Source: Sulfurospirillum tamanense (GTDB lineage Bacteria > Campylobacterota > Campylobacteria > Campylobacterales > Campylobacteraceae). Taken from it: a stretch of 64,000 bases of DNA. The stretch covers positions 1 to 64,000 of the forward strand of contig NZ_JAFHKK010000008.1 of assembly GCF_016937535.1 (NCBI RefSeq). The letters run 5' to 3'. Positions 37,752 to 51,334 of the stretch are shown here, piece after piece; the first letter of the stretch is position 1; each line of letters begins with the position of its first letter. The translations under genes were made by a program, and so were the position numbers. The notes below the pieces were generated by a model, which was given only the letters and a program-made list of their open reading frames with translations, was not told the origin of the DNA and ran no database searches.

Positions 37752-38543
37752 TTAACGGCGTAACGCCTTTTTCATTTTAAGATAATTTACCCACTGGTCA
37801 ATCCCTTTGCCTGATTTGCTGTCAATCTCAATAACATCTACTTTGGGGTTCAGTTTGCGTGCTTCTTTAACGGCGTGCTCAATACTGAAGTCAAAATGGG
37901 GCAACAATTCACATTTAGTGATAAGCAACAGATCCGCGGCGCGAAACATCACAGGGTATTTTGCAGGCTTATCATGCCCTTCTGGGACGGAGAGCAACAC
38001 CACGTTTAAGTGGGTTCCCACGTCATAACTGGCAGGACATACCAAGTTGCCTACGTTTTCTACAAAGACCACATCAAGGTCCTCAAGGGGCATGGCATGC
38101 AATCCCTCATGCACCATAAAGGCATCCAAATGGCACGCTTGGCCCGTTGAAATTTGATACGCAGGGGCACCCTTGGCTTTGATGCGGTCTGCGTCCTGGT
38201 TGGTCTCCAAATCACCCTCGATAACACCAAGCTTTAGCGCTCCTGTGTCAATAGTTGCCTCCAAAAGGGTAGTTTTACCAGAACCTGGGCTACTCATAAG
38301 GTTCACCGCCAACACATTATGGGTTTCAAAATGCTCCCTGATGTGCGCCGCTTCTTTGTCATTAGCATCTAAAATCTTGGTGATAACTGCGATAGTTTTG
38401 GCATCATTAAGCTGAGGATTTGGGTGATTCTCGTGATGGTGGTCATGACTATGGTCATGGTCATGGTGATGGTGATGGTGATGATCATGGTCGTGATCGT
38501 GACTATGGCTTCGGGTGATGGTGCAACCGCAATCTTTACACAT
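37752..38543 (-). CDS. hypB: Hydrogenase nickel incorporation GTPase HypB, with His-rich nickel store
   Basis: GTPase (263 aa) that drives nickel delivery. The N-terminal C-x2-C-x-C metal motif (MCKDCGC) is followed by a tract at about 12-43 with some 18 histidines alternating with Asp and Ser, a nickel-storage type extension. The P-loop is SSPGSGKTT; further G-domain motifs are EGDLET and ITKCELL. It is the first gene of the hypBCDEA operon, with AAAGGA before the ATG. In DNA the His tract appears as a CATGGT-like repetitive stretch at about 38424-38510. Confidence 0.97.
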   Translation of the reverse strand: MCKDCGCTITRSHSHDHDHDHHHHHHHDHDHSHDHHHENHPNPQLNDAKTIAVITKILDANDKEAAHIREHFETHNVLAVNLMSSPGSGKTTLLEATIDTGALKLGVIEGDLETNQDADRIKAKGAPAYQISTGQACHLDAFMVHEGLHAMPLEDLDVVFVENVGNLVCPASYDVGTHLNVVLLSVPEGHDKPAKYPVMFRAADLLLITKCELLPHFDFSIEHAVKEARKLNPKVDVIEIDSKSGKGIDQWVNYLKMKKALRR

Positions 38544-38567
38544 AGAGGTTCCTTTTGGGTTAGTGAC

Positions 38568-38597
38568 TGTGCCCTAAAGCACAAAAAAGACATTATA
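38568..38597 (-). promoter_or_regulatory. Candidate hypBCDEA promoter with a small inverted repeat
   Basis: TATAAT (38597-38592 on the minus strand) is a consensus -10 about 50 bases before hypB. TGTGC/GCACA arms (38568-38572 and 38579-38583) lie at the predicted start of transcription and could be a leader hairpin or operator. No clear -35. Confidence 0.45.
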
Positions 38598-38661
38598 AAC
38601 GGGCCAAGTAAAAGCCTCCTTAAAAAGATAAAAACTTACTAAATTTCAGGAGTGAGTTGTG

Positions 38662-38667
38662 CTATAC
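38662..38667 (+). promoter_or_regulatory. Candidate -10 box of the IS1595-like gene
   Basis: TATACT preceded by TGC (an extended -10) would place the transcript start close to base 38675, the A of the first ATG. The message might then be leaderless, unless a TTG start at 38657 after AGGAG is used from a promoter further up. Confidence 0.35.
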
Positions 38668-38674
38668 TGCACCA

Positions 38675-39397
38675 ATGAAATCAACACCATGCCCTTTTTG
38701 CAACCACACCCATTTTTATCCTCTAAAAGACGGCAGGCTGGAGTGCACCGCTTGCAATCGCAGGCATTCGCCCCTCAAGCGCGCTGAAACACTCAAACTT
38801 CTTGATAGCTTTCTAGCTCAAGATAAACCAAAAAGCGCAGCCAAAACACTTGGTCTTTCTTTGCCAACTGTTCAAAAACATTTCGCCCATTTTCGCCATC
38901 TTTGCACTTTGCTGAGCGAGGAGCTGTATCAAAACAATGCGGGTAATTTTAGCGAGTACGAAGAGTATCTTTTTTTGCCAGCTTCCAAACAGAAAAACCC
39001 CCATTACATTGTTGAGGGGGTAGGATTAATGGGGTTAAGCACGGGGAAAATTGTCTACACATTGCTCATGCCTGACCATTTTCATACCTACGACGCCCAA
39101 GTGCGTGCCAATCCAGAATTCATCCAAACCCTAGAAAGCTATTATCAGTGGCATAAAATCAGCAAATTTAACACCTCAAACACACCACTTAGTCATTTTT
39201 GGGGATTTTTGGAAACATTTTTAAAGGGATTTCACGGTGTAAGAAGAGAAAATTTTGGAGTCTATTTAAAAGAGGTAGAATTTAGGTTTAATCATGACAA
39301 AGAAACACAAAAACGCCTATTAACGCGCGCATGGAAGGAGCACGAAGCACTCAAGCCTCGTGCAAAAATGATTACGAAGCAGGAACAGCGGCTTTAA
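38675..39397 (+). CDS. Decayed or domesticated IS1595/ISXO2-like transposase
   Basis: 240 residues with the layout of IS1595-family transposases. A zinc ribbon comes first (C-x2-C ... C-x2-C at about 5-31, CPFC and CTAC). A helix-turn-helix follows ([17 protein letters not shown]). The C-terminal part [22 protein letters not shown] matches the family pattern for the end of the DDE domain. However, the expected first acidic pair is absent (FLPASK), and the Glu before F-W is Ser (PLSHFWGF). No inverted repeats or target duplication were seen. The family assignment rests on remembered patterns. Divergent to hypB, convergent with nikR (26-base overlap), so it may have become a local DNA-binding protein (inference). 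Confidence 0.6.
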
Positions 39398-39785
39398 CAA
39401 GTTTAGAAAATTTAACCCCCTTGAGGCCACCAATTTTCTGGGCAAAATCTTGAATTTTATTGGCTTGTCCTTGTACCATGACAGTTTCAAGGCAATTGTC
39501 ATGATCCACATGTACATGGGTATTGCACATGATTTTAATTTTTGCGTCATGTTGGATGTCGATAATGCGTTGCACTAAATCGTTTTGGTGGTGGGTGTAA
39601 ATCATTGTTAAAACACCAATAACATCGGAGTTATCGTCTTTCCAATTGTCTTTTACGATTTTTTCACGAATCAAATCACGGGTAAATTCACTGCGTGAAG
39701 CATACCCTTGCGTAGAGACCTTTTTGTCAAGCTCAACTAGTAGTTGCTCAGGAAGTGAAACACTAAAACGAATAACATTATCCAT
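39372..39785 (-). CDS. nikR: Nickel-responsive transcriptional regulator NikR
   Basis: A 137-residue ribbon-helix-helix repressor/activator. The RHH domain occupies about 1-50 ([19 protein letters not shown]...[11 protein letters not shown]). The C-terminal ACT-like nickel domain carries THHQND and HVHVDHDNC, whose His and Cys residues form the square-planar nickel site. It sits downstream of hypF on the same strand, between the hyp and hyd gene sets, and so probably adjusts hydrogenase or nickel uptake genes to nickel supply. Confidence 0.95.
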
Positions 39786-39811
39786 TATTTTTCCTTATTT
39801 AAGTTAAATTT

Positions 39812-39863
39812 TAGTAATACTATTGCAAAAATACTTAAAATACAATAAGATTAATTATTATTG
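39812..39863 (-). promoter_or_regulatory. Possible nikR control region
   Basis: The 80 bases between hypF and nikR hold two dyads: TAGTA-A-TACTA (39812-39822) and CAATAA-N9-TTATTG (39843-39863). AT-rich dyads of this kind are plausible NikR or autoregulatory sites, but neither matches a consensus I can state with certainty. Confidence 0.3.
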
Positions 39864-39865
39864 TG

Positions 39866-42076
39866 CTAAATATGTTGCATCAACTGCCCTATGGCAATTG
39901 CACCGTCATTTGGTGTTATTTTTTGAGGAAAATACAGGGGGATATTTTCTTTTTTTGTCGCGATAATTAGGCGCTCAAGAAGGGTTTTGTTTTGAAACAC
40001 TCCCCCGCCGATAACAAGAGGTAATTTTTCTTTTTTTGCAACATCAATAATACAACAAACAAGACCATTAATAAATTTTGTGCATATTTGCTCTTTATCA
40101 TCTTCTAGCATTGCCAAAAAAACTTCCTCATAATCAATCACACCTTCTTTACATGTAAAAGGGTAAGCCTCTAGGTATTCAGGCTTTACAGCACGCTCAA
40201 CAAGCAAACCACTCTCACCATCATAACTCACTTTTTCTAACCCAAAAGCCAATGCTGCAACGGCATCGAACAACCTTCCCACAGAAGAACAGTAAGGGGA
40301 ATTGAGTCCTTTTTGATGAAGTTTTTTCAACACTGCTTGTTTGTTTTTTGGAACATTGCCAAAAAGCCTCTTTACATGTAAATGCCATTTCTCCTCAGGA
40401 ATATCGCAGAAAATTGTAAATAAAATTCGCCAAATATCTTTAGTGCTCGCATCCCCGCCAAGAAGCTTAAAGGGTTTAAAATGGGCTACGCGCGCATATG
40501 CTTTACCCTCACAGCGCAAAAATTCTCCACCCCATATGGTTCCATCGTCTCCATAGCCCGTCCCATCCCACGCCACGCCTAGCACGGGGCCTTCAAGGCC
40601 ATGTTCAAACATCACCGCACGAATGTGGGCGTGGTGGTGTTGCACCGTGTGTACAGGCACGCCTTGCACTTTTGCCCACTGGGAAGTTGCATAATAAGGA
40701 TGTTTATCGCACACGATTGCGTCGCATTTCACCCCATAAAAGCGCTCTAGAGTCCCTAGGGTTTTTTCAAAGAACCCAAAGGTTTCTAGGGTGTGCATGT
40801 CACCAATATAAGGACTTTGAATGATTTTGCCCTCATAAAAAAGTGCGATAGCGTTTTTTTGCTCGGCCCCTACTGCCAAAATAGTCTGCTTGCATTGGCT
40901 TTTGGTCTGAAAAGTTTGGGGCGTTAACCCTCTTGAAGCGCGCAATAAGACAGGTCTATCGCCCACCAACTGTACCACGGAATCATCACTGGCATTGACA
41001 ATCTCACGGTTGTAGTCCAGATACACATCCACCACACCTGCCAATTTTTCACGCAATAACTCTGCGCTTTCTACGATGGGTTCCCCTGAACGGTTGGCAC
41101 TTGTGGCCACAATGCACCCGTTTAAAAAAGAAAACAGTTTTACATGTAAAGGAGTATAGGGCAAAAACAACCCTAGCCTATCCGTATGTGGCGCAATAAT
41201 TTCTGGCAAAGTTGATGTAGCACGTTTTTTAACCAAAACAATGGGTTTTTGAATGGAACACACCATAGTCTCTTCATGCTCACTCAAAAGCGCATGAGAA
41301 TGGATAGTTTTTATGTCTTTACACATCAGCGCAAAAGGCTTTGTGGGACGTTGTTTTCGTGCGCGAAGCAAGGCCACAGCCTGTGCATTTTCCCCATCAC
41401 ACATAAGGTGAAACCCGCCCATGCCCTTCATGGCCACAATGTTGCCTGCGCACAAGTATTGTGCTAGCGCTTCAATGGCTTCGTCTCCCTCCACCAATGT
41501 TGCGCCATCGCTCATACGGTGCAAGCTAAGCGTGGGCCCGCAATGGGGGCAACTGATGGGCTGAGCATGGTACCGTCTATCAAGAGGATTATCATACTCC
41601 GCTTGACACAAGGCACACATGATAAAAGGCTCCATGGAGGTATTGGGGCGATCATAAGGCACGGTACGGATGATGGAATAGCGCGGACCACAATTGGTAC
41701 AGTTTGTAAACGCGTATCCGTAGCGGTGATTGGAGGGGTCGGCCATCTCTTGAGCACAATCTTCACACAAAGCCATGTCGGGAAGCACGGCCGAGTGCTT
41801 TGCTCCTGTGTGCAAGCTTTGGCGAATCTCAAAAACGGTCGAATTTTCCAAAGGTTTGAGTGTTTTTTGCAAAAGATCGATGCGGGCAAGAGGTGGCAAG
41901 GATGTTTTTAAATCCTGTTCGAAGGCGTCAATTTTTGCCTCGTCCCCCTCCACCTCAATGCTCACGCCCTCGGGCGAATTGAGGACAAAGCCCGAAAGAG
42001 CGTGGCTTAATGCAAGGGTATACACAAAGGGCCGAAACCCAACCCCTTGCACCAGGCCTTCCACAAAAAAACACAC
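39866..42076 (-). CDS. hypF: Carbamoyltransferase HypF
   Basis: Makes the carbamoyl group transferred to HypE for the cyanide ligands. In 736 aa: acylphosphatase domain (VEGLVQGVGFRPFVY at the start), two zinc-finger repeats (CEDC...CTNC and CALC...CPHC), a YrdC-like domain, and a Kae1-like C-terminal domain with HHHAHIRAV and GVAWDGTGYGDDGT. A GTG at 42076 is the conventional start. A CTG at 42085 lies six bases after AGGAG and would add Met-Lys-Arg, giving a more typical HypF N-terminus; I think it is the likelier one. Three exact palindrome copies lie within (40149, 40372, 41140). Confidence 0.96.
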   Translation of the reverse strand: MCFFVEGLVQGVGFRPFVYTLALSHALSGFVLNSPEGVSIEVEGDEAKIDAFEQDLKTSLPPLARIDLLQKTLKPLENSTVFEIRQSLHTGAKHSAVLPDMALCEDCAQEMADPSNHRYGYAFTNCTNCGPRYSIIRTVPYDRPNTSMEPFIMCALCQAEYDNPLDRRYHAQPISCPHCGPTLSLHRMSDGATLVEGDEAIEALAQYLCAGNIVAMKGMGGFHLMCDGENAQAVALLRARKQRPTKPFALMCKDIKTIHSHALLSEHEETMVCSIQKPIVLVKKRATSTLPEIIAPHTDRLGLFLPYTPLHVKLFSFLNGCIVATSANRSGEPIVESAELLREKLAGVVDVYLDYNREIVNASDDSVVQLVGDRPVLLRASRGLTPQTFQTKSQCKQTILAVGAEQKNAIALFYEGKIIQSPYIGDMHTLETFGFFEKTLGTLERFYGVKCDAIVCDKHPYYATSQWAKVQGVPVHTVQHHHAHIRAVMFEHGLEGPVLGVAWDGTGYGDDGTIWGGEFLRCEGKAYARVAHFKPFKLLGGDASTKDIWRILFTIFCDIPEEKWHLHVKRLFGNVPKNKQAVLKKLHQKGLNSPYCSSVGRLFDAVAALAFGLEKVSYDGESGLLVERAVKPEYLEAYPFTCKEGVIDYEEVFLAMLEDDKEQICTKFINGLVCCIIDVAKKEKLPLVIGGGVFQNKTLLERLIIATKKENIPLYFPQKITPNDGAIAIGQLMQHI

Positions 42077-42094
42077 CCGCTTCAGGGAATGCTC

Positions 42095-43750
42095 CTATGT
42101 GTCCAAAGGAAGTTCGCGGTTAAAACAGACCGTATGAGAAACCCGTGCTTGGCGCGCTGCCACTTCTGCCATGCGCCGATTAGCAAAGAGTCCGCCACAA
42201 AAGCCCACATGGGTTGTTTTGAACTCCTCTTTTATGCGGTCAAGCATATCGGAAACAAAATATCCCAAGCTGTCTACGTATCCAAAACTCAGTGTCAAGG
42301 CATCCAAATCTGCAAGGCAATAGCTCATCCCACTACGCACCACACGCATAGCATTCAAAGAGCCTTTGAGGGTTTCACCCTCTAGCAAATAATCAATCCT
42401 TGGCCCTTTTAAACCGCTAAAAATCATAGCATTATCAAGCATTGCTGTTGTGGCTTCTTGTACCGTGGGAGCATACCCAAACAACACGCCCGCCGCACCC
42501 ATAAGTGTAGCGATGCTTCTTGGTTCACTTGCAAGAGAAATTTCGCGCGCAAAAGCCACTTGCTCAGGGTACGCTTTGGTAAAATTTTCCACCAAGCGCT
42601 CGCCACTACTGCCACTTTCTTTGATAGCATCTAAAATTTCCCCGATAGTATCAGGGAAGTCAACCTTCACCAAATCGACCATTCCAAGCTCTTCTTGGTA
42701 GACCATGCACCCATCATCATGGTGTCGACTAAGGTAAAAACATGCCACCGAAGCATCAAAAAGGTGATGCTCTTTTAAAAGTGCAGCAAAATGCCCGTGG
42801 GATTTTTCTTCAAAAGCTTGGGCACTTTTTTGAATGAGAGGATTGGTGTACGTCTCTCCAAAAGCAGGGATAATCTCACCATTTTCCAAGACCAACACTC
42901 CAATACTCTGGCGGAACTCTCCCCCTTCATACGTAAGCGCATCTTCTTCTGTGGCCTCGCAAGGCGTGAGTGCTACAAACTCCACTCCAAGTTCAAAGAG
43001 CGACGCACAAAGCAGGTAAAGCACCAAATCATCTGCCATTTTCATGTTGACAAACCGCTCGGGCAAAATGCCTTTAGCTTCAAAAATGCTATTGAGCGGG
43101 AGGCGTAAAATGGGTTTTTCCAAAGAAGCCAACGCTTTAATTTCGTCTTCTTTAATGACCATCATCTTTTCCACAACACTCAAATCACACGGCACCACCA
43201 CCGAAGTCTTATCAAAAAAGCGTGGCTTACATGTAAGCGCTTCAAGGCGAACCCATCCTGTCGCGGTCTTTACATGTAAAGGATTTTCCTTTGCCATATC
43301 TGCCGCAGCAGAAAAAATCTCTTTAAAAGAAGTGCTTTGACTGGTAAAAAGTGTCTCTTTTTTGCTCAAGCGCAAAGGCGCATGGCCTTGGATATTCTTT
43401 CCAAATGTGGGTGGAACAAAGGGATTGTGGGTGGCCTTAGCCTGTGAAAGCATTTTTGGCGTAAAGGGCAGAGCAACATGGCACACAGGACGCTCCATAC
43501 GGGTTTGCCCTAACTGTGTTTCCGTCTTTACATGTAAAGATTTAAAATACAGCGACAACGGTAACGCTTGCGCTAAGTGATCCGAAAAATCAATCAACAC
43601 CGCCTCTTCACCCTCAACACACAAGGTCACTGCTCCCTCTTGACGCTCAAGGGAAAATGGCAATGGCTTTTCTTCTAACACTTCAAATAAAAAATTCTCC
43701 AATACCCCATTATGGGAAACATAGTGAAATTCAAACGCTAGAATCATCAT
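42095..43750 (-). CDS. hydE: Hydrogenase maturation protein HydE (Campylobacterota type)
   Basis: A 551-residue protein I identify mainly by position as the fifth gene of hydABCDE, and by its C-terminal half, which resembles the Kae1-like end of HypF (GVLFGYAPTVQEAT, HVGFCGGLFANRRMAEV). In Helicobacter pylori hydE is needed for hydrogenase activity, but its step is not known. I choose the ATG at 43750 (MMILAFEFHYVS) after AAAGAGAGT; it overlaps hydD by 20 bases. Three exact palindrome copies (43227, 43270, 43528) lie in the N-terminal half. Confidence 0.78.
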   Translation of the reverse strand: MMILAFEFHYVSHNGVLENFLFEVLEEKPLPFSLERQEGAVTLCVEGEEAVLIDFSDHLAQALPLSLYFKSLHVKTETQLGQTRMERPVCHVALPFTPKMLSQAKATHNPFVPPTFGKNIQGHAPLRLSKKETLFTSQSTSFKEIFSAAADMAKENPLHVKTATGWVRLEALTCKPRFFDKTSVVVPCDLSVVEKMMVIKEDEIKALASLEKPILRLPLNSIFEAKGILPERFVNMKMADDLVLYLLCASLFELGVEFVALTPCEATEEDALTYEGGEFRQSIGVLVLENGEIIPAFGETYTNPLIQKSAQAFEEKSHGHFAALLKEHHLFDASVACFYLSRHHDDGCMVYQEELGMVDLVKVDFPDTIGEILDAIKESGSSGERLVENFTKAYPEQVAFAREISLASEPRSIATLMGAAGVLFGYAPTVQEATTAMLDNAMIFSGLKGPRIDYLLEGETLKGSLNAMRVVRSGMSYCLADLDALTLSFGYVDSLGYFVSDMLDRIKEEFKTTHVGFCGGLFANRRMAEVAARQARVSHTVCFNRELPLDT

Positions 43751-44288
43751 ACTCTCTTTGGCACGCAAGATTAGCAACTTGTTGGATGGTGAGCTCTGGT
43801 TTTTGCACCACAACGTCAAACCCAATGTTGCGCATATGTTCGATAAATGTTTTTTCCATAACAGTTGCACCTTCGCGCACTGCTTTGGTCATTTCAAGGG
43901 TCGTGATGGAGATGACTTCAGGAATAATACCAATCACTTTCGTAGGAGGCCTATCGCCTAGTAAATCCATCATTGTTAATGTTTGAAGCATTTCCACTTC
44001 GTGAGCACTTCCTTGCCATGTAATCGAATTGGGCACGTCTTCAAAATCAAAAAAATAGACATCGCCAATTTTACCATCATTTGCATCTACACAATCAAAA
44101 ATAATCAAAGCGTCATAAGGTGCAATAATAGGGATTAATCGTTCAGCAAGGGTGCCACCGTCGACAAAATCGACGGTGTGCTCAGAAGAAGTAAACGCAT
44201 ACTTTTGTTCAACCAAATGGCAAAGATGGACTCCGACACCTTCGTCGGAGAACATCACATTGCCTATTCCAAGTACAAGAACCTTCAT
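43731..44288 (-). CDS. hydD: Hydrogenase maturation protease HydD
   Basis: Endopeptidase (185 aa) that removes the C-terminal tail of the HydB precursor once nickel is in place. It starts VLVLGIGNVMFSDEGVGVHL with the nickel-binding Glu of the S-D-E-G motif, and has FVDGGTLAERLIP and FDCVDAND (second metal ligand region). Operon order is hydA-hydB-hydC-hydD-hydE on the minus strand. Confidence 0.95.
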   Translation of the reverse strand: MKVLVLGIGNVMFSDEGVGVHLCHLVEQKYAFTSSEHTVDFVDGGTLAERLIPIIAPYDALIIFDCVDANDGKIGDVYFFDFEDVPNSITWQGSAHEVEMLQTLTMMDLLGDRPPTKVIGIIPEVISITTLEMTKAVREGATVMEKTFIEHMRNIGFDVVVQKPELTIQQVANLACQREYDDSSV

Positions 44289-44301: not shown

Positions 44302-44976
44302 TTAATGATGGTCGTTTTTAGTGTATTTGTACCCACTGAAAACTGCATCCATGGAGCCTTCTTTGCCTTTGAGGGAGCTAAAGATTGCCAAATAGATATG
44401 GATAGGAGTAAAAATCAAAATCCCCCACATAGTGATGTGGTGAATCGCCCTTACATTGGCAAGCCCACCCATCATCGCTTCGATTGGTCGCATATAATCA
44501 TACAAAAACCCACCAAGGCCTTCATGGTATACATGCACATACAAAATAAGTCCCGTTAGACAAATTAAGACAACCATAGCATACAACCCAAGGTAAGCCA
44601 TGAATTGAAGCGGATTGTAAGCACCGCGCATATGAGGGTGTGGCCCCATAAATAAGTAATACTTAATCTGCGCAATCCAAGCCTTTGGACTAATGAAGTC
44701 CCAAAAAGAAACACGCTCTAATTTGCTAATACGATCAAAAAAGAACAGGTATGTCTTGAAGATTGTTGCTGCTATGAGCACAAATCCTGCAATTTGATGC
44801 CACATTCTCATTTCTGCATGCAAAAATAAAATGGGCTCACCCGAAGGCTTAGGGGATGCGAACACGTAGGTCAAGTAAAACCCCGTGCCCACTAGGATAA
44901 ACATCATAATAAAACGTATCCAGTGCGTCCACCTGTAGCCAGCTGAAAATTCATAAACTCTTGTGCGTTTTGACAT
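44302..44976 (-). CDS. hydC: [NiFe]-hydrogenase cytochrome b subunit
   Basis: Membrane diheme cytochrome b (224 aa) that anchors HydAB and passes electrons to menaquinone. It has four main membrane helices with candidate heme-ligating His residues in GYRWTHWIRF, HQIAGFVLI, YVHVYHEGLGG and IHHITMWGILIFTPIHIY. Length and helix pattern fit the HydC/HupC family. It is 15 bases after hydB. Confidence 0.94.
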   Translation of the reverse strand: MSKRTRVYEFSAGYRWTHWIRFIMMFILVGTGFYLTYVFASPKPSGEPILFLHAEMRMWHQIAGFVLIAATIFKTYLFFFDRISKLERVSFWDFISPKAWIAQIKYYLFMGPHPHMRGAYNPLQFMAYLGLYAMVVLICLTGLILYVHVYHEGLGGFLYDYMRPIEAMMGGLANVRAIHHITMWGILIFTPIHIYLAIFSSLKGKEGSMDAVFSGYKYTKNDHH

Positions 44977-44991
44977 TGCTTACTCCTTAGC

Positions 44992-46716
44992 TTAGCAGCT
45001 AGTACCGTTTGGATTGACCTTATAGCTACTGATTTCGTTGCCCTTGGTATCCATAACATGTACCGCACACGCAAGGCATGGGTCAAATGAGTGGATGATA
45101 CGGATAATCTCTAAAGGCTGAGATAAATCTGCAATCTTAAGACCCACTAATGCTTCTTCGTATGGTCCACGCACACCACTTGCATCTTTGGGAGAAGCAT
45201 TCCAAGTGGTCGGAACAACTGCTTGGTAATTTTCAATCACACCGCCTTTGATGCGAACCCAGTGAGAAAGCACCCCACGAGGCACGTTGCCAATGTAACG
45301 ACCTCTGTATTCTTTGTTTTTATCAATCACATACGGAGCGCAAGTTTCTTGATCAACTTTAAGGTTATTAACAAGGCTTTGGAACGCTTCCATGCCACTG
45401 TCAATAATCACCTTCGTTTCAAGCATACGGCACGCTGTACGGCCAAGGGTTGAAAGGGCCGCTGCCAAAGGAAGACCTGTTTCTTTCAAGAATTGATCAA
45501 CAACCTTCACAACACGCGGGTTGCCCTTAGCGTAGTTCACCACAATATTTGCAAGTGGTCCTGTTTGCATTGGCTTGCCATCGTATCGAGGGGCTTTAAC
45601 CCACGTGTATTTTCCTTTGGTATCAATCGCTTTAGAGTGTGCGAGCTCACCTTTGTCATTGATGGTATCCATGCTTACAAACCCTGTGTAGTTAGGATTT
45701 TGCTTACCATCATACGGGTGTAATGGCTCGTTATCTACATACCATGCACGGGTTGCTTCTTCAGTGATTTTACTTTCGTCGATTTCAAGCACTTGGCTCA
45801 AATCGCCGTTCATAATAATGCCACTTTCAAAAATAGTCTCATTTGCATTAATAGGAAACTCTTTATACGTAAAGAGGTTAGCCGTTCCTAAGTCGTTCAG
45901 AACGCTTTCTTCTACCGCATACGCCTTGCCTGCCATCACAACATCAGGGTAGTACGCACGGTTGATAAAATCAGCAACTTCTTGGTATTTCACCATAAAC
46001 TCACCCAAGCGCGCAGGGCTCATAAGGTCCATAATACATGTCACACCGCCTACAGTCAAGGACTGTGGATGGGGTTGTTTTGCACCAAAAATCGCCATCA
46101 TTTGCGCTGCTGTTCGCTGAATGCGCAAGCACTCCAGGTAGTGAGAAAGTGCGATGAGGTTTTGCTCAGGTGTTAAGTGGTATGTTTTGTGTCCCCAGTA
46201 AGCATTCGCGAACGGCCCAAGGTGTCCTTTTTTAACAAAGGCTGCCACACGCTCTTGTACGGCTTTAAGGTGGTCATGTCCAGTTGCAATCGGGCTATCA
46301 GTGTACTGGAATGCAATCTCGGATGCTTTTTTAGGATCTGCACTTAGGGCAGAAACCACATCTACCCAGTCAAGTCCATGGAGTTGGTAAAAGTGCACAG
46401 GGTGGTCATGCATAAACAAAGAGACAAGCATCAATGAACGTGTCAATACCGCATTAAGTGGCGGTTGAATGCCAAGGGCATTTTCTACCGCTTCAATGCC
46501 TGCTTTGTAGTGAGAGTAAGTACAAACACCACAAATACGCTGAACAAAGAAGCCCGCATCTCTAGGATCACGTCCCTTTAAAATGGTTTCAAGACCACGC
46601 CATAGGGTTGAAGAAGCGTAAGCTTCTGTTACCACATTGTTATCATCAACTTCTACTTCAACGCGAAGGTGGCCTTCGATTCGTGTAATGGGGTCTACAA
46701 TAATTCGCTTACTCAT
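44992..46716 (-). CDS. hydB: Periplasmic uptake [NiFe]-hydrogenase, large subunit
   Basis: Carries the Ni-Fe active site (574 aa). The N-terminal ligand motif is RICGVCTYSH, and the C-terminal one DPCLACAVH is followed by 21 residues that HydD must cleave after the His. It is exported with HydA through the Tat pathway as a folded complex (known for the family). It is 3 bases after hydA. No palindrome copies in this gene. Confidence 0.97.
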   Translation of the reverse strand: MSKRIIVDPITRIEGHLRVEVEVDDNNVVTEAYASSTLWRGLETILKGRDPRDAGFFVQRICGVCTYSHYKAGIEAVENALGIQPPLNAVLTRSLMLVSLFMHDHPVHFYQLHGLDWVDVVSALSADPKKASEIAFQYTDSPIATGHDHLKAVQERVAAFVKKGHLGPFANAYWGHKTYHLTPEQNLIALSHYLECLRIQRTAAQMMAIFGAKQPHPQSLTVGGVTCIMDLMSPARLGEFMVKYQEVADFINRAYYPDVVMAGKAYAVEESVLNDLGTANLFTYKEFPINANETIFESGIIMNGDLSQVLEIDESKITEEATRAWYVDNEPLHPYDGKQNPNYTGFVSMDTINDKGELAHSKAIDTKGKYTWVKAPRYDGKPMQTGPLANIVVNYAKGNPRVVKVVDQFLKETGLPLAAALSTLGRTACRMLETKVIIDSGMEAFQSLVNNLKVDQETCAPYVIDKNKEYRGRYIGNVPRGVLSHWVRIKGGVIENYQAVVPTTWNASPKDASGVRGPYEEALVGLKIADLSQPLEIIRIIHSFDPCLACAVHVMDTKGNEISSYKVNPNGTSC

Positions 46717-46719
46717 GGG

Positions 46720-47877
46720 TTATTCCTCTTCTTTCTTTGAACCTTTAACTGCAGCAATCGCAGCATGCGCCGCAATACCTACAGCCGTTGCTGTTAGCAA
46801 TGCAACACCAACCTTATCCGCCGTTTTATCTGCCCCTACACCATAGAGTGTTTGATAGAGTCTACTGCCAAGAGGCTCTTCAAATGGGCCCATTGTGTCC
46901 CAAAAGTCTGGCTCACTACATCCGATACAGCCGTGTCCCGCCTGAATTGGCCAAGAAGTGTGTTGGTTAAAGCGCTCAATTGAGCAGTTATTAAACGTAT
47001 AAGGACCTTTACAACCTACTTTGTAAAGACAGTAGCCTTTCTTTGCACCCTCATCACCGAATTGCTCAACAAACTCACCCGCATCAAAGCGGCCACGTCG
47101 CTCACAAAGGTCATGAATACGAATACCATAAGACCATTTTGGACGGTTATAAACATCAAGGGCAGGAAGTGCGCCAAAGAGAACATAATGAAGCACTTGA
47201 CCTACGATGTTTTTCTCACTTGGAGGACATCCTGGTACATTAATAACGGTTTTATTGGTAAATTTACTCATAGGTTGTGCATTGGTTGGGTTTGGATAGG
47301 CTGCTTGAACCCCACCAAAACTTGAACATGAACCGATAGCAAAAATAGCCGCAGCAGATTCTGCAGCAGCACGACAATGGGCTGCCCCTGTGGTTCCGTG
47401 TGGCCCAACAGTTAAGTAGAACTCGCTTTGTCCTTCTGGAATGCCGCCCTCAACCATCAAGATAAGTCGCCCTTTGTATTTTTTGATGGCATCTTCAAGA
47501 TTGTGCTCTGCTTGCCATCCCGCAGCAGCCATCAATGTTTCGTGGTATTCAAGGGAAATAAAGTCAAAAAGTAAACTGTCGATTGTTGGTTCTGCCGTTC
47601 GCACTAAACTCTCACTACAGCCTGTACATTCTGCCATGTGCAACCATACTACTGGCAAACGGTCTGTGAGTTCAGCAGCTTGCGCCATCAATGGCGTGAA
47701 CGAAGAAGGGAGAGACAAAAGTGCTGTCATACCCGCTGCCCACTTCATAAAATCACGGCGATTAACGCCATTTTCGTCCATCATACTACGAACGGACTTA
47801 TCTTCCCGAAGCTTCGGAAATTTAGAAAGTTCTGCAAGTCGCGCAGAAACCCTCTCAAACATTTCGGCATGTTCCAT
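46720..47877 (-). CDS. hydA: Periplasmic uptake [NiFe]-hydrogenase, small subunit
   Basis: Electron-transfer subunit (385 aa) with three Fe-S clusters. The Tat signal N39-R-R-D-F-M-K follows a longer than usual N-terminal lead, then a hydrophobic stretch ending near AQA. The proximal cluster motif is the standard ECTGCSES, with further ligands in GSCSSFGG and NVPGCPPSE. A C-terminal hydrophobic helix (about 355-375) anchors it to the membrane. AGGAG precedes the ATG. First gene of the hydABCDE operon. Confidence 0.97.
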   Translation of the reverse strand: MEHAEMFERVSARLAELSKFPKLREDKSVRSMMDENGVNRRDFMKWAAGMTALLSLPSSFTPLMAQAAELTDRLPVVWLHMAECTGCSESLVRTAEPTIDSLLFDFISLEYHETLMAAAGWQAEHNLEDAIKKYKGRLILMVEGGIPEGQSEFYLTVGPHGTTGAAHCRAAAESAAAIFAIGSCSSFGGVQAAYPNPTNAQPMSKFTNKTVINVPGCPPSEKNIVGQVLHYVLFGALPALDVYNRPKWSYGIRIHDLCERRGRFDAGEFVEQFGDEGAKKGYCLYKVGCKGPYTFNNCSIERFNQHTSWPIQAGHGCIGCSEPDFWDTMGPFEEPLGSRLYQTLYGVGADKTADKVGVALLTATAVGIAAHAAIAAVKGSKKEEE

Positions 47878-47928: not shown

Positions 47929-47946
47929 AATGAATGATTATTCATT
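47929..47946 (-). promoter_or_regulatory. Palindromic operator candidate upstream of hydA
   Basis: AATGAAT-GATT-ATTCATT, a perfect 7-bp dyad with a 4-base centre, 52-69 bases upstream of the hydA start. Its size and spacing are typical of TetR-family operators, and a tetR gene heads the other hydrogenase operon in this island. The same dyad is not seen before tetR itself. Confidence 0.45.
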
Positions 47947-48094
47947 TATATTTAATCTAATCTTGCCACAAAGCACAATGAGTCCCCTCTCATTTATCTG
48001 CAACATCCGCACAATAGTGTAGAAACGAAACATAATTTTAAGACAAATTGAGTATTTTTTTAATTTAATTTTAATCTCATAGTGGTGAAGTTGT

Positions 48095-48102
48095 GATAAA
48101 AT
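48095..48102 (+). promoter_or_regulatory. Candidate extended -10 for the small gene at 48145
   Basis: TGA followed by TAAAAT (48097-48102), 42 bases before the ATG. Confidence 0.35.
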
Positions 48103-48144
48103 AATCTGAACATCAACTTAATGATAATTATAAAGGAATTGCAC

Positions 48145-48390
48145 ATGGTTTTGGGATTTAGTATGTCGCTTGCACTCTATGTTAGTAGCATTAATGATTA
48201 TCCCTATTTAGAAAAACGTGTGCCGCGCCCTCAAAAAAAAGAGGTTTCTATTGATTCAACCGTTACTCCTCGTGATTTCAACAAGAAAGCAGATGATTAT
48301 AACCGTTGTATGAATGACGGAAAAAGCGAGAAAGATTGCAGACATTTACTTGGTCCAACGTACCACTTCAACATTGAAATAAAGCCTTAA
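48145..48390 (+). CDS. Small hypothetical protein between the two hydrogenase operons
   Basis: 81 residues, not recognised. The short hydrophobic N-terminus (MVLGFSMSLALYVSS) could be a weak signal or membrane anchor. The rest is polar with one Cys pair, C-M-N-D-G-K-S-E-K-D-C. I choose the ATG at 48145 because AAGGA lies upstream. It is the only plus-strand gene between 39.4 and 61.9 kb and sits exactly between divergent hyd and convergent hup genes. Any role in hydrogen metabolism is guesswork. Confidence 0.55.
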   Translation: MVLGFSMSLALYVSSINDYPYLEKRVPRPQKKEVSIDSTVTPRDFNKKADDYNRCMNDGKSEKDCRHLLGPTYHFNIEIKP

Positions 48391-48427
48391 AAAGTGTTTA
48401 CTAGAGGAGTTTTACTTCAAAGAAAAA

Positions 48428-49762
48428 TTACTGGGTTGTACACACAGAACAAACATCAAGACTTTTAAAAACAAGTTCGGCCTCACGCACACTTCTAGCC
48501 CCTAAAAGTGCCTTTTGAATCACAGAGGGTTCTTTTTTGGTGCCATTTCCAAGATTCCACACCGTGGGAGTGATGATATCATAGGAGAGAATTTTCCCTT
48601 TTTGTAGTTCAACCCTGTGTAGCAATGATCCTCGAGCCGCTTCGACCACACCTTGCCCTTTTATATTTAAGGTTTCAATCGGAAAAGTAGGTTTAACACA
48701 AGAAGGCTCTTCAATACAAAGGGCATCAAGCAAGTGTCGCGTTTGAACCACAAGGTGTGCAATCTCAATCACTCGGGCTAAAATTCGCGTGATTAGTGCA
48801 TCTTTATATTTACGATGCATCTCCCGCACCAAAGGCTCTTTTTGTATCATCATGCGCGCCAAAGGGCCTGTTTCAAAATATTTGTTCTTATACAGAGCAC
48901 TTTTAGAGTAAGTGTGACCATTTTTTTCAAAAAAGGTGTTGACCAAACTTTCACTAACATATTTTGGATCTGCGTTCACAACGCGAGTTTTAAGGCATTT
49001 TTGCGCACCCAGTCCATTATCAAAACCCAAAGCCAAAAACCTATCATAGCTTCGCCCAAGTGTCACAAAAGGTTCCCTGACAAGCACTTCAAAAATCATT
49101 CCCAACAACGGCATATGACCTAAGGTGCCAAAGACTATTTTTTCGGTCACAATTTCTCCACAGGCCACTCCAAAGAGGGTTTTTTCGCAAAAATTGTCCA
49201 CCTCATCAAGAAGCAAGCGTGCTTGCATAATGTCCATTTGTGTAGGGTCACAGGTGACGCCACCAACCATCACGTAGCTCCCATGAGGCCATTGCCCACT
49301 AAAAATAGCACCCATTTTTAAAATTTTTGAAAATGCTTCTTGTGTTGCTACCCAAGGCTTACCCTGAGGCAAAACAATTTTTTCGAGACGCTTATCATGC
49401 TTTGCTAATTCTGGCACAACAGAAACCATTAGCCATTTTAAATGGTTTTGAATTTTTTCAGCATTGAGCACAATGGTGCGAATTGCTTTGGCTTTGGCTG
49501 AAATTTCAAGAGGGTATCCAAGAGAGGTGTAACAATCCTCAAGGGCCAACACAGCGGCACTGATATGCGCATGGGAACAAATACCACACACCCTAGGGGT
49601 AATGACAAGCGCATCAAGCGGGTGTCTCTCTTTTAAGATTTCCTCAATACCGCGAAAATTTAAAAAAGAGACCCTTGAATCAATAACTTTATTGTTTTCC
49701 CATGCCAACTCAAGCTTTGCCTCTCCTTCGATTTTAGTGATAATTTCTTTACTAATCCTCAT
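48428..49762 (-). CDS. Cytoplasmic group-2-like [NiFe]-hydrogenase, large subunit
   Basis: A 444-residue large subunit. The N-terminal ligand motif is RVCGICSHAH. The C-terminal motif is D436-V-C-S-V-C-T-T-Q444, where the standard is D-P-C-x2-C-x2-H, and the protein ends there. It has no tail for protease cleavage, as in HupV/HoxC sensor hydrogenases and some group 2 enzymes. The partner small subunit has no Tat signal, so the enzyme is cytoplasmic. It may be an H2 sensor or a soluble uptake enzyme; sequence alone does not decide. It overlaps the small-subunit stop by 11 bases. Confidence 0.88.
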   Translation of the reverse strand: MRISKEIITKIEGEAKLELAWENNKVIDSRVSFLNFRGIEEILKERHPLDALVITPRVCGICSHAHISAAVLALEDCYTSLGYPLEISAKAKAIRTIVLNAEKIQNHLKWLMVSVVPELAKHDKRLEKIVLPQGKPWVATQEAFSKILKMGAIFSGQWPHGSYVMVGGVTCDPTQMDIMQARLLLDEVDNFCEKTLFGVACGEIVTEKIVFGTLGHMPLLGMIFEVLVREPFVTLGRSYDRFLALGFDNGLGAQKCLKTRVVNADPKYVSESLVNTFFEKNGHTYSKSALYKNKYFETGPLARMMIQKEPLVREMHRKYKDALITRILARVIEIAHLVVQTRHLLDALCIEEPSCVKPTFPIETLNIKGQGVVEAARGSLLHRVELQKGKILSYDIITPTVWNLGNGTKKEPSVIQKALLGARSVREAELVFKSLDVCSVCTTQ

Positions 49763-50663
49763 CCATTAGCCTTTTTTCCAATCGTTCAATTCTAAACCCT
49801 TTAGCAACACCAGCAAGGGCATAATATGCACGTCTAGAAATCCCTACAGGAACAGCGGGAAGTGACATGTATTTGGGTGTCAAAAAAAGCGTTTGCCTAG
49901 GGAAGCTTGGTTCAGTACACCCCAAACAAGGACTACCTACACGTGTTTTACTGCTCGTCTCATTCCATAAAATTTTGTTGCAATTTGCGTGTGTCATGGG
50001 GCCTTGACACCCTTGCTCGTAAAACAAACACCCCTCTTTTATGCCAAAGGTATCACAATCCACCTTCCACTCAAAATACTCATTACGCAAACAGCCATGG
50101 TGGGCAAGGTATGCATAAATTTCCTTTGGACGGCAAAGAGTGTCAAGCACCAAAGGGCGGCGGTGCTTTAGTAGCATAAGCGTCTCAATAACCCATGAAG
50201 GATGCACCGGACACCCAGGAAGATTGACAAGAGAATTGCCTGCTAGCGTTTTCAATGCATCCCCAAAAAAGCCGCCTTTTTTTTCACCTCGAAAAAGACC
50301 ACCCATGATTTTCTCTGGATCACGCTCTTTAAACACACCACCAAAAGAAGCACAACTTCCCACACACACCACATGGGTTGCGCGCGGCATCAGCACACCT
50401 AAAATCTCATCCAGCCCCATCCCATGGCGCTCTATCATAGAGGCATCATGACTCAAAGCACCCTCAATAATGAGCACATCAATAGCAGCAGGAGAATCCA
50501 TTAGTGCTTTTAAAGTAAAGGGGGAAGGAAAAAGGGGATGGTATAAAAAAGAAAAAACCTCACAAAAAGAGGCAAATTGCGTATAATTTAACAAAGAGTG
50601 GCTATTACCATTACATGTAAGGCCCTGAACCCATGCAATGGTAAAGGGAGTTGCCTCAGGCAT
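49752..50663 (-). CDS. Cytoplasmic group-2-like [NiFe]-hydrogenase, small subunit with altered proximal-cluster motif
   Basis: 303 residues, with no Tat signal and no C-terminal membrane helix. The proximal-cluster motif, normally C-T-G-C-S-x-S, is C17-N-G-N20-S-H-S, so the second Cys is replaced by Asn. Other ligands are present: GSCASFGG, NLPGCPVHP, and the medial/distal set in CLFYEQGCQGPMTHANC and GSPCLGCTEPSFP. The start overlaps tetR by 8 bases. C17 and N18 are encoded by an exact palindrome copy at 50611 (LTCN). Confidence 0.9.
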   Translation of the reverse strand: MPEATPFTIAWVQGLTCNGNSHSLLNYTQFASFCEVFSFLYHPLFPSPFTLKALMDSPAAIDVLIIEGALSHDASMIERHGMGLDEILGVLMPRATHVVCVGSCASFGGVFKERDPEKIMGGLFRGEKKGGFFGDALKTLAGNSLVNLPGCPVHPSWVIETLMLLKHRRPLVLDTLCRPKEIYAYLAHHGCLRNEYFEWKVDCDTFGIKEGCLFYEQGCQGPMTHANCNKILWNETSSKTRVGSPCLGCTEPSFPRQTLFLTPKYMSLPAVPVGISRRAYYALAGVAKGFRIERLEKRLMDED

Positions 50664-51249
50664 CTTCTGCTTTCAAGGCACGGTAGATGTTGTCTGCAAT
50701 CTCGTCCACATAGGTTAACAGTCCTCGCGAAAGCGTATTTTCTCCATTAAGAAAAACAAACCCTCCCAAATAGCCCATTAGCAACCCAAAAGCGGTAAAA
50801 AAATCCTGATTGCGAAGTTCGCCTTTGCGCACGCCCTCTTCAAAGAAAATCATAAGTTCGGTCATAAACTCACTCACGCAAAGCATCCCTTCGCATCCGT
50901 CTTTAAAGACCTCTTTATTTGAGAGAAAAACACGTAAAAAATAATTCAAGTGTTCGGGTTTTTTTTCCGCAATCTGAAAGTAGGCCTCGACAATTTTTTG
51001 GATTTTTTCTTCCGTAGAAATGGGCATTTCATTGATTTTTTGGATTTTTTCCGCAATCATTTTTGAAGAATAACGAATAATTTCTCGCGCCAAAAGCTCT
51101 TTGGAAGTGTAGTAGTTATAAATATTTCCCGCACTCATCCCGATAGATTTTGCAATCTGGGGAATAGTGGTGGCATAAAACCCTTGGGTCGAAAAGAGTT
51201 TTAATGCCGCTTCTAAGATAAGTTCTGATTTGTTATTTACCTTTGCCAC
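50656..51249 (-). CDS. TetR-family transcriptional regulator heading the cytoplasmic hydrogenase operon
   Basis: 197 residues. The TetR helix-turn-helix is at about 10-55: ILEAALKLFSTQGFYATTIPQIAKSIGMSAGNIYNYY in family order. The C-terminal ligand-binding domain is helical and of unknown ligand. It is translationally coupled to the small subunit gene. Such coupling suggests that it controls hydrogenase expression, perhaps together with signals from the soluble hydrogenase (inference). A clear sigma-70 promoter lies upstream. Confidence 0.9.
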   Translation of the reverse strand: MAKVNNKSELILEAALKLFSTQGFYATTIPQIAKSIGMSAGNIYNYYTSKELLAREIIRYSSKMIAEKIQKINEMPISTEEKIQKIVEAYFQIAEKKPEHLNYFLRVFLSNKEVFKDGCEGMLCVSEFMTELMIFFEEGVRKGELRNQDFFTAFGLLMGYLGGFVFLNGENTLSRGLLTYVDEIADNIYRALKAEDA

Positions 51250-51263
51250 AATCTTTGCGTCCT

Positions 51264-51334
51264 TTACATGTAAAGCTTTTTACATGGTAGTTTTCGCAAA
51301 AGTGTAACACAAATACCCAAACAGTCAACTTTTG
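51264..51334 (-). promoter_or_regulatory. tetR-hydrogenase promoter with dyad and palindrome copy
   Basis: On the minus strand TTGACT (51328-51323), 16 bases, then TACACT (51306-51301) form a good sigma-70 promoter. CAAAAGT (51297-51303) and ACTTTTG (51328-51334) are arms of a dyad that flanks both boxes, as for an autoregulated promoter. Downstream, in the leader, lies an exact TTACATGTAA at 51264-51273, with a damaged second copy just beyond. Confidence 0.6.

Follow-up and report, generated by a model that had tools for sequence, protein, structure and literature searches.

A conserved candidate TetR operator at hydrogenase promoters of Campylobacterales and a possible hydrogen-sensing role for the linked HupSL hydrogenase

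Results

Gene layout of the locus

In the window, by which we mean the whole 64,000-nucleotide stretch of DNA analysed, hydrogenase genes lie on the minus strand in the order tetR, hupS, hupL, hydA, hydB, hydC, a protease gene, a HypF_C-like gene, hypF, nikR and hypB (Table 1). The earlier note on this DNA had described overlapping genes for the regulator and the small and large subunits, and these overlaps are present, 8 bp being shared by tetR and hupS and 11 bp by hupS and hupL; the TetR-type dyad that it had placed just upstream of hydA likewise lies there, 51 nt from the hydA ATG (47877). We presume hydA to be the main target of TetR, and the maturation genes beyond hydC possibly belong to one transcription unit with hydABC. 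No Tat signal was seen in the hupS product.

The HypF_C-like gene (591 aa; window 42095-43870, minus strand) matches the HypF C-terminal domain weakly and recurs in the hyd operons of relatives, and a small ORF of 81 aa with no Pfam match (window 48145-48390, plus strand) sits in the gap between hupL and hydA. Divergent from hypB is a gene for an IS1595-transposase-like zinc-ribbon protein (window 38657-39397, plus strand), whose counterparts diverge from NicO-hypB or hypB in loci L086, L125, L186 and L190 with the dyad between or beside them; it is possibly a domesticated regulator.

Table 1. Features of the tetR-hupSL-hydABC locus, in window coordinates
Feature	Position	Strand	Description
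maturation genes 3' of hydC	37752..44288	-	protease (HycI), HypF_C-like gene, hypF, nikR, hypB
hydC	44302..44976	-	cytochrome b subunit; PF01292
hydB	44992..46716	-	large subunit, C-terminal extension present
hydA	46720..47877	-	small subunit, periplasmic membrane-bound [NiFe] hydrogenase; TIGR00391, 537 bits
candidate operator dyad	47929..47946		AATGAATGATTATTCATT, core TGAATN4ATTCA, exact; upstream of hydA, between hupL and hydA
A/T-rich -10-like block of hydA promoter	47945..47955	-	touches dyad; placed from dyad-aligned promoters, not an experimental start site
hupL	48428..49762	-	large subunit, cytoplasmic group 2-like [NiFe] hydrogenase, without C-terminal extension; PF00374
hupS	49752..50663	-	small subunit; Huc the nearest solved structure, E 1.7e-51; Fe-S cysteines
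tetR	50656..51249	-	TetR-family repressor, invariant C119/C124; PF00440; model pLDDT 91.6
tetR-hupSL promoter	51301..51328	-	sigma-70-like TTGACT-16-TACACT; match to consensus alone, at chance rate; without dyad

A conserved dyad at the hydA promoter

The extended form AATGAATN4ATTCATT occurs exactly once in the window and once in the 2.46 Mb genome, and with up to three mismatches allowed the window holds five dyads against 6.4 expected by chance, so that the proof of the dyad lies in its conservation rather than its rarity. In an alignment of hydA promoters anchored on the dyad, a -10-like block rich in A/T directly precedes it, and the dyad is therefore expected to cover the +1 position, as a repressor site would; this is the arrangement predicted for a TetR-family repressor, whose palindromic operator overlaps the core promoter of the gene that it controls.

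Among 75 promoter rows we left out two without TetR (L047 and L113) and one duplicate (L090). The core is exact in 52 of the remaining 72 hydA promoters of tetR-carrying genomes and has one mismatch in a further 18, as compared with 0.24% and 4.4%, respectively, of first-order Markov sequences used as a control. Promoters of hydA in genomes without a linked tetR carried it exactly in none of 40 cases and with one mismatch in three; the difference in exact dyads between the two sets is strong (Fisher p 2e-15), a value inflated by ancestry shared among genomes, which makes all counts of dyad and TetR given here non-independent. We sampled 299 genomes of the order: TGAATGAYTATTCA occurred exactly in 64 of 138 with TetR versus 9 of 161 without, and six of these nine (G291, G297, G067, G127, G212 and G042) have it inside genes, where we treated it as chance. 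The same core stands 5' of hydA in loci of many families, the conservation in relatives for which the earlier note had called, and tetR-hupSL lies upstream of hydA in most of the loci examined. A phylum-level sample yielded no matches beyond the order, and a scan of genome contigs returned three loci only. On this comparative evidence we take the dyad to be a genuine and conserved operator.

Loss of the regulator is accompanied by decay of the site. Three species within a single genus have no tetR-hupSL: in two of them (G085 and G282) one half-site is ruined at the aligned position, in the third (G216) the whole site is gone, and in all three the promoter is still conserved at its ribosome-site end. 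The earlier note had held that relatives with the dyad but without the tetR operon would speak against its proposal: in G009, G109 and G235 the dyad does occur without a linked TetR, while more than 60 genomes are concordant. These three dyads may be remnants or may have been taken over by a paralogue. TetR and dyad are kept without HupSL in G161 and G243; in G161 an opposite-strand flavoprotein-like gene (L177:6894-8267) occupies the place between tetR and hydA where hupSL is missing.

Some hydA genes have paired dyads upstream, 44-45 bp apart in L189 (4395/4439) and L185 (690/735) and 77 bp apart in L097 (1292/1369), possibly as cooperative or divergent operators, and a second hydA operon, present in some genomes, also bears the dyad.

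Dyads beyond hydA and the tetR promoter

Away from the locus, exact dyads stand 13-60 bp before a gene for a NicO-like nickel transporter followed by hypB in L086, L087, L130, L131, L133 and L189, directly before hypB in L125 and L190, and before a CbiM transporter gene in L126. In the window genome hypB follows hydA on the same strand without a separate dyad. In family f9, which is Arcobacter-like, several dyads away from the locus are far from any gene start. Single exact dyads also precede genes for a thiosulfate/polysulfide reductase-like molybdoenzyme (a molybdopterin enzyme) and an SQR-like protein (L115:4759, L117:5268 and L106:5353), and the TetR regulon may reach sulfur respiration.

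The earlier note had assigned a dyad to the promoter of the tetR operon as well, which needs correction. The hydA dyad is absent there, and its exact core occurs in none of 61 homologous tetR promoters, which disposes of autoregulation of tetR through a site of this type and means that the tetR-hupSL pair is not controlled through the dyad. A different palindrome, CTTTACATGTAAAG, lies between the tetR promoter and the start codon (window 51267-51281); it is partly kept in the nearest relative only, not generally, and is possibly a separate control site.

The TetR protein and its invariant cysteines

The regulator belongs to the TetR family by its TetR_N domain (PF00440, E 1.9e-15), its confidently modelled fold and its Foldseek matches. 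FadR of Bacillus is among the closest folds (TM about 0.82), at 17-22% identity; FadR senses acyl-CoA and has no hydrogenase partner, and our protein scores 48.9 bits in the NCBIfam FadR equivalog model against the 200 bits required. The operator of FadR is itself built of TGAATGA half-sites.

Two cysteines, C119 and C124, are invariant in the alignment of 57 hydrogenase-linked TetRs and missing as a pair in six paralogues. In the model a helix begins at residue 120; C119 closes the loop that leads into this helix, and C124 is one of the helix residues. The pair is likely a redox or metal switch. One paralogue is encoded in the window genome (G000:C1:188398-188964; L053:8393-8980) behind an operon for a peptide/nickel-type ABC transporter; it is 50% identical, lacks C119/C124 and has a recognition helix close to that of the hydrogenase-linked TetR. 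G009 also carries a paralogue with a similar recognition helix.

HupSL and its nearest relatives

All 64 HupL homologues lack the C-terminal extension, ending at CSVCTT(H/Q/K) or close variants, unlike HydB. HupL is never found without a linked TetR, the few apparent exceptions being contig ends. HupSL keeps the active-site CxxC motifs and the Fe-S cysteines with one exception: in 58 of 63 HupS sequences Asn replaces small-subunit Cys20, as it does in Huc.

Huc (Mycobacterium smegmatis, group 2a) is the nearest solved structure for both subunits and shares CxGN in place of CxGC; its large subunit is about 513 aa long, as against 444 aa in HupL. Huc is an energy-conserving enzyme. The regulatory hydrogenases HoxBC/HupUV (group 2b, Cupriavidus necator) resemble HupSL in being cytoplasmic two-subunit enzymes encoded beside a regulator of another hydrogenase. 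HoxC also ends at its last CxxC (FDPCMVCTVH) without an extension; HupSL has the extra medial cysteine of HoxB, and Ile at the HoxC I62 position in 64 of 64 sequences. The HoxC F110 position, which together with I62 marks the narrow gas channel of the regulatory enzymes, holds Phe in 11 of 64, in a part of the alignment that is uncertain. The two systems differ in that HupL has about 26% identity to HoxC, HupS is about 50 residues shorter than HoxB and Cys20 is replaced by Asn. HoxBC operates with HoxJ/HoxA, and on pHG1 a sigma-54 regulator and an ATP-binding protein adjoin hoxBC, whereas the HupSL operon has a TetR repressor instead. The earlier note was right that no kinase or response regulator is encoded here: the operon consists of tetR, hupS and hupL only, with neither a histidine kinase nor an NtrC-type regulator, and no kinase adjoins tetR-hupSL in the S. 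paralvinellae and Sulfurovum mangrovi loci. The absence of a linked kinase and response regulator keeps us from filing HupSL as a member of HoxBC/HupUV; by analogy, the system may nevertheless work like that of a regulatory hydrogenase. We tentatively place HupSL in group 2d (HupSL/HuaSL) by synteny and naming, as PMC12286921 assigns the enzymes of Sulfurospirillum and A. butzleri to 2d and the gene order is that of S. multivorans tetR-hupSL-hydABC (PMC5357620).

Discussion

According to PMC5357620, next to nothing was known about how this group regulates its hydrogenases. In S. multivorans tetR-hupSL lies beside hydABC and TetR was suggested to repress hupSL (Kruse et al. 2017, PMC5357620), so that the presence of a TetR gene beside hupSL had already been noted. 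Earlier work on group 2d settled on no role and named no operator, with H2 recycling or ferredoxin reduction suggested, and the Nautilia group 2 enzyme was called H2-sensing by phylogeny only, a metabolic role being proposed (PMC2628731). The mostly open-access papers that we searched contain no description of the operator, the regulon or the cysteine pair, which as far as we could find are unreported.

Our findings suggest that TetR is a dedicated repressor of hydrogenase genes that would bind TGAATN4ATTCA over the hydA transcription start and, in other species, at nickel-transporter and hypB operons. The earlier note had proposed a hydrogen-sensing circuit in which a cytoplasmic hydrogenase signals through this protein. 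We find strong support for its link between TetR and the hydA dyad: the two occur together across the order, the dyad sits in the promoter as a repressor site would, a wider set of hydrogenase-related genes carries it, and it has decayed in genomes that lack tetR. Comparison of sequences makes TetR very probably the binder and repressor at the dyad; the role of HupSL as the H2 input, for which anatomy, gene linkage and published expression data speak, we hold to be probable with much less assurance.

Those expression data point in two directions as to whether the other hydrogenase is controlled by H2. When A. butzleri was grown on H2 rather than acetate, a comparison in which the electron donor changed too, both hynAB sets rose 2.3-6.2 fold and huaSL fell (PMC12286921), consistent with such control; PMC4584990 lists both HydABC and HupSL for A. 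butzleri RM4018, which should possess the dyad, since the Arcobacter-like loci that we examined bear it. To the contrary, qPCR in S. multivorans found hupL nearly silent and hydB without a significant response to H2 (PMC5357620).

We propose that HupSL would act as a cytoplasmic regulatory hydrogenase encoded in the same operon as TetR: where H2 is present, HupSL would split it and signal to TetR, which would leave its operator and allow the energy-conserving hydrogenase to be made. Three things are inferred here, namely repression by TetR bound at the dyad, H2 as the signal and HupSL as its receptor, and we favour the model as a whole only modestly, a shade less than its H2 input taken singly. 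The points that count against it are the unresponsive hydB of S. multivorans, the retention of TetR in G161 and G243 without HupSL, the dyads without TetR in G009, G109 and G235, and the apparently unconserved HoxC F110 position. The signal could pass through C119/C124, HupSL oxidising H2 and giving electrons directly to TetR, so as to reduce a disulfide between these two cysteines, or else a metal or Fe-S site that they make up, and free the operator. The transfer of electrons from HupSL to TetR is what we infer rather than observe, and this cysteine relay is speculative and, in our estimate, doubtful.

The foremost competing explanation grants that TetR represses hydA and hyp genes through the dyad and has it sense another cue, such as O2, redox state, a metabolite or nickel, with HupSL an ordinary supplier of reductant, for instance for CO2 fixation. 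The lack of HupSL in G161 and G243, which retain TetR with its two cysteines as well as the dyad, would follow naturally, as would the S. multivorans hydB result; C119 and C124 might respond to oxidants or metal by themselves, and a metabolic role has been put forward for the enzyme in both Nautilia and S. multivorans. A mere supplier of reductant is, however, hard to square with a HupL that never occurs without TetR, has no linked redox partner gene, lacks the C-terminal extension and, in S. multivorans, is transcribed at a very low level, and a mere nickel sensor would hardly be expected to serve genes for nickel uptake and for hydrogenase through a single operator. We regard this explanation as possible, though rather unlikely.

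We give considerably less credit to the idea that TetR controls the hupSL operon alone, as Kruse et al. 2017 suggest for S. multivorans, and that NikR or a TetR paralogue reads the hydA dyad. The palindrome at the window tetR promoter would suit it, as would the paralogues with similar recognition helices, one each in G000 and G009, yet tetR promoters share no dyad of the hydA type. NikR was not found in the dyad-bearing G027, G039 and G246 and is present in G085, G216 and G282, where the dyad is decayed or lost, so that the dyad does not track NikR and is not a NikR site. A paralogue as the general binder is unlikely because paralogues are rare across the order and the dyad tracks the linked TetR, while in G009 one could still serve. 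That the dyad is a functionless chance palindrome, as its chance-level frequency in the window at three mismatches might suggest, is refuted by its conservation at one promoter position in many families and its absence from 40 tetR-less hydA promoters, and merits practically no credence.

Many Campylobacterales rely on H2 as a main source of energy. TetR apparently switches the hydrogen-burning enzyme together with nickel and maturation genes through one conserved DNA site, a regulon that we predict for nearly half the genomes sampled from the order, and a group 2 cytoplasmic hydrogenase thereby gains a likely job, a partner and a DNA site. Our results suggest a layout for H2 sensing without a two-component system or histidine kinase across Campylobacterales, and the cysteine relay, if true, would be a one-step redox path from H2 to promoter, without a kinase, spread through the order.
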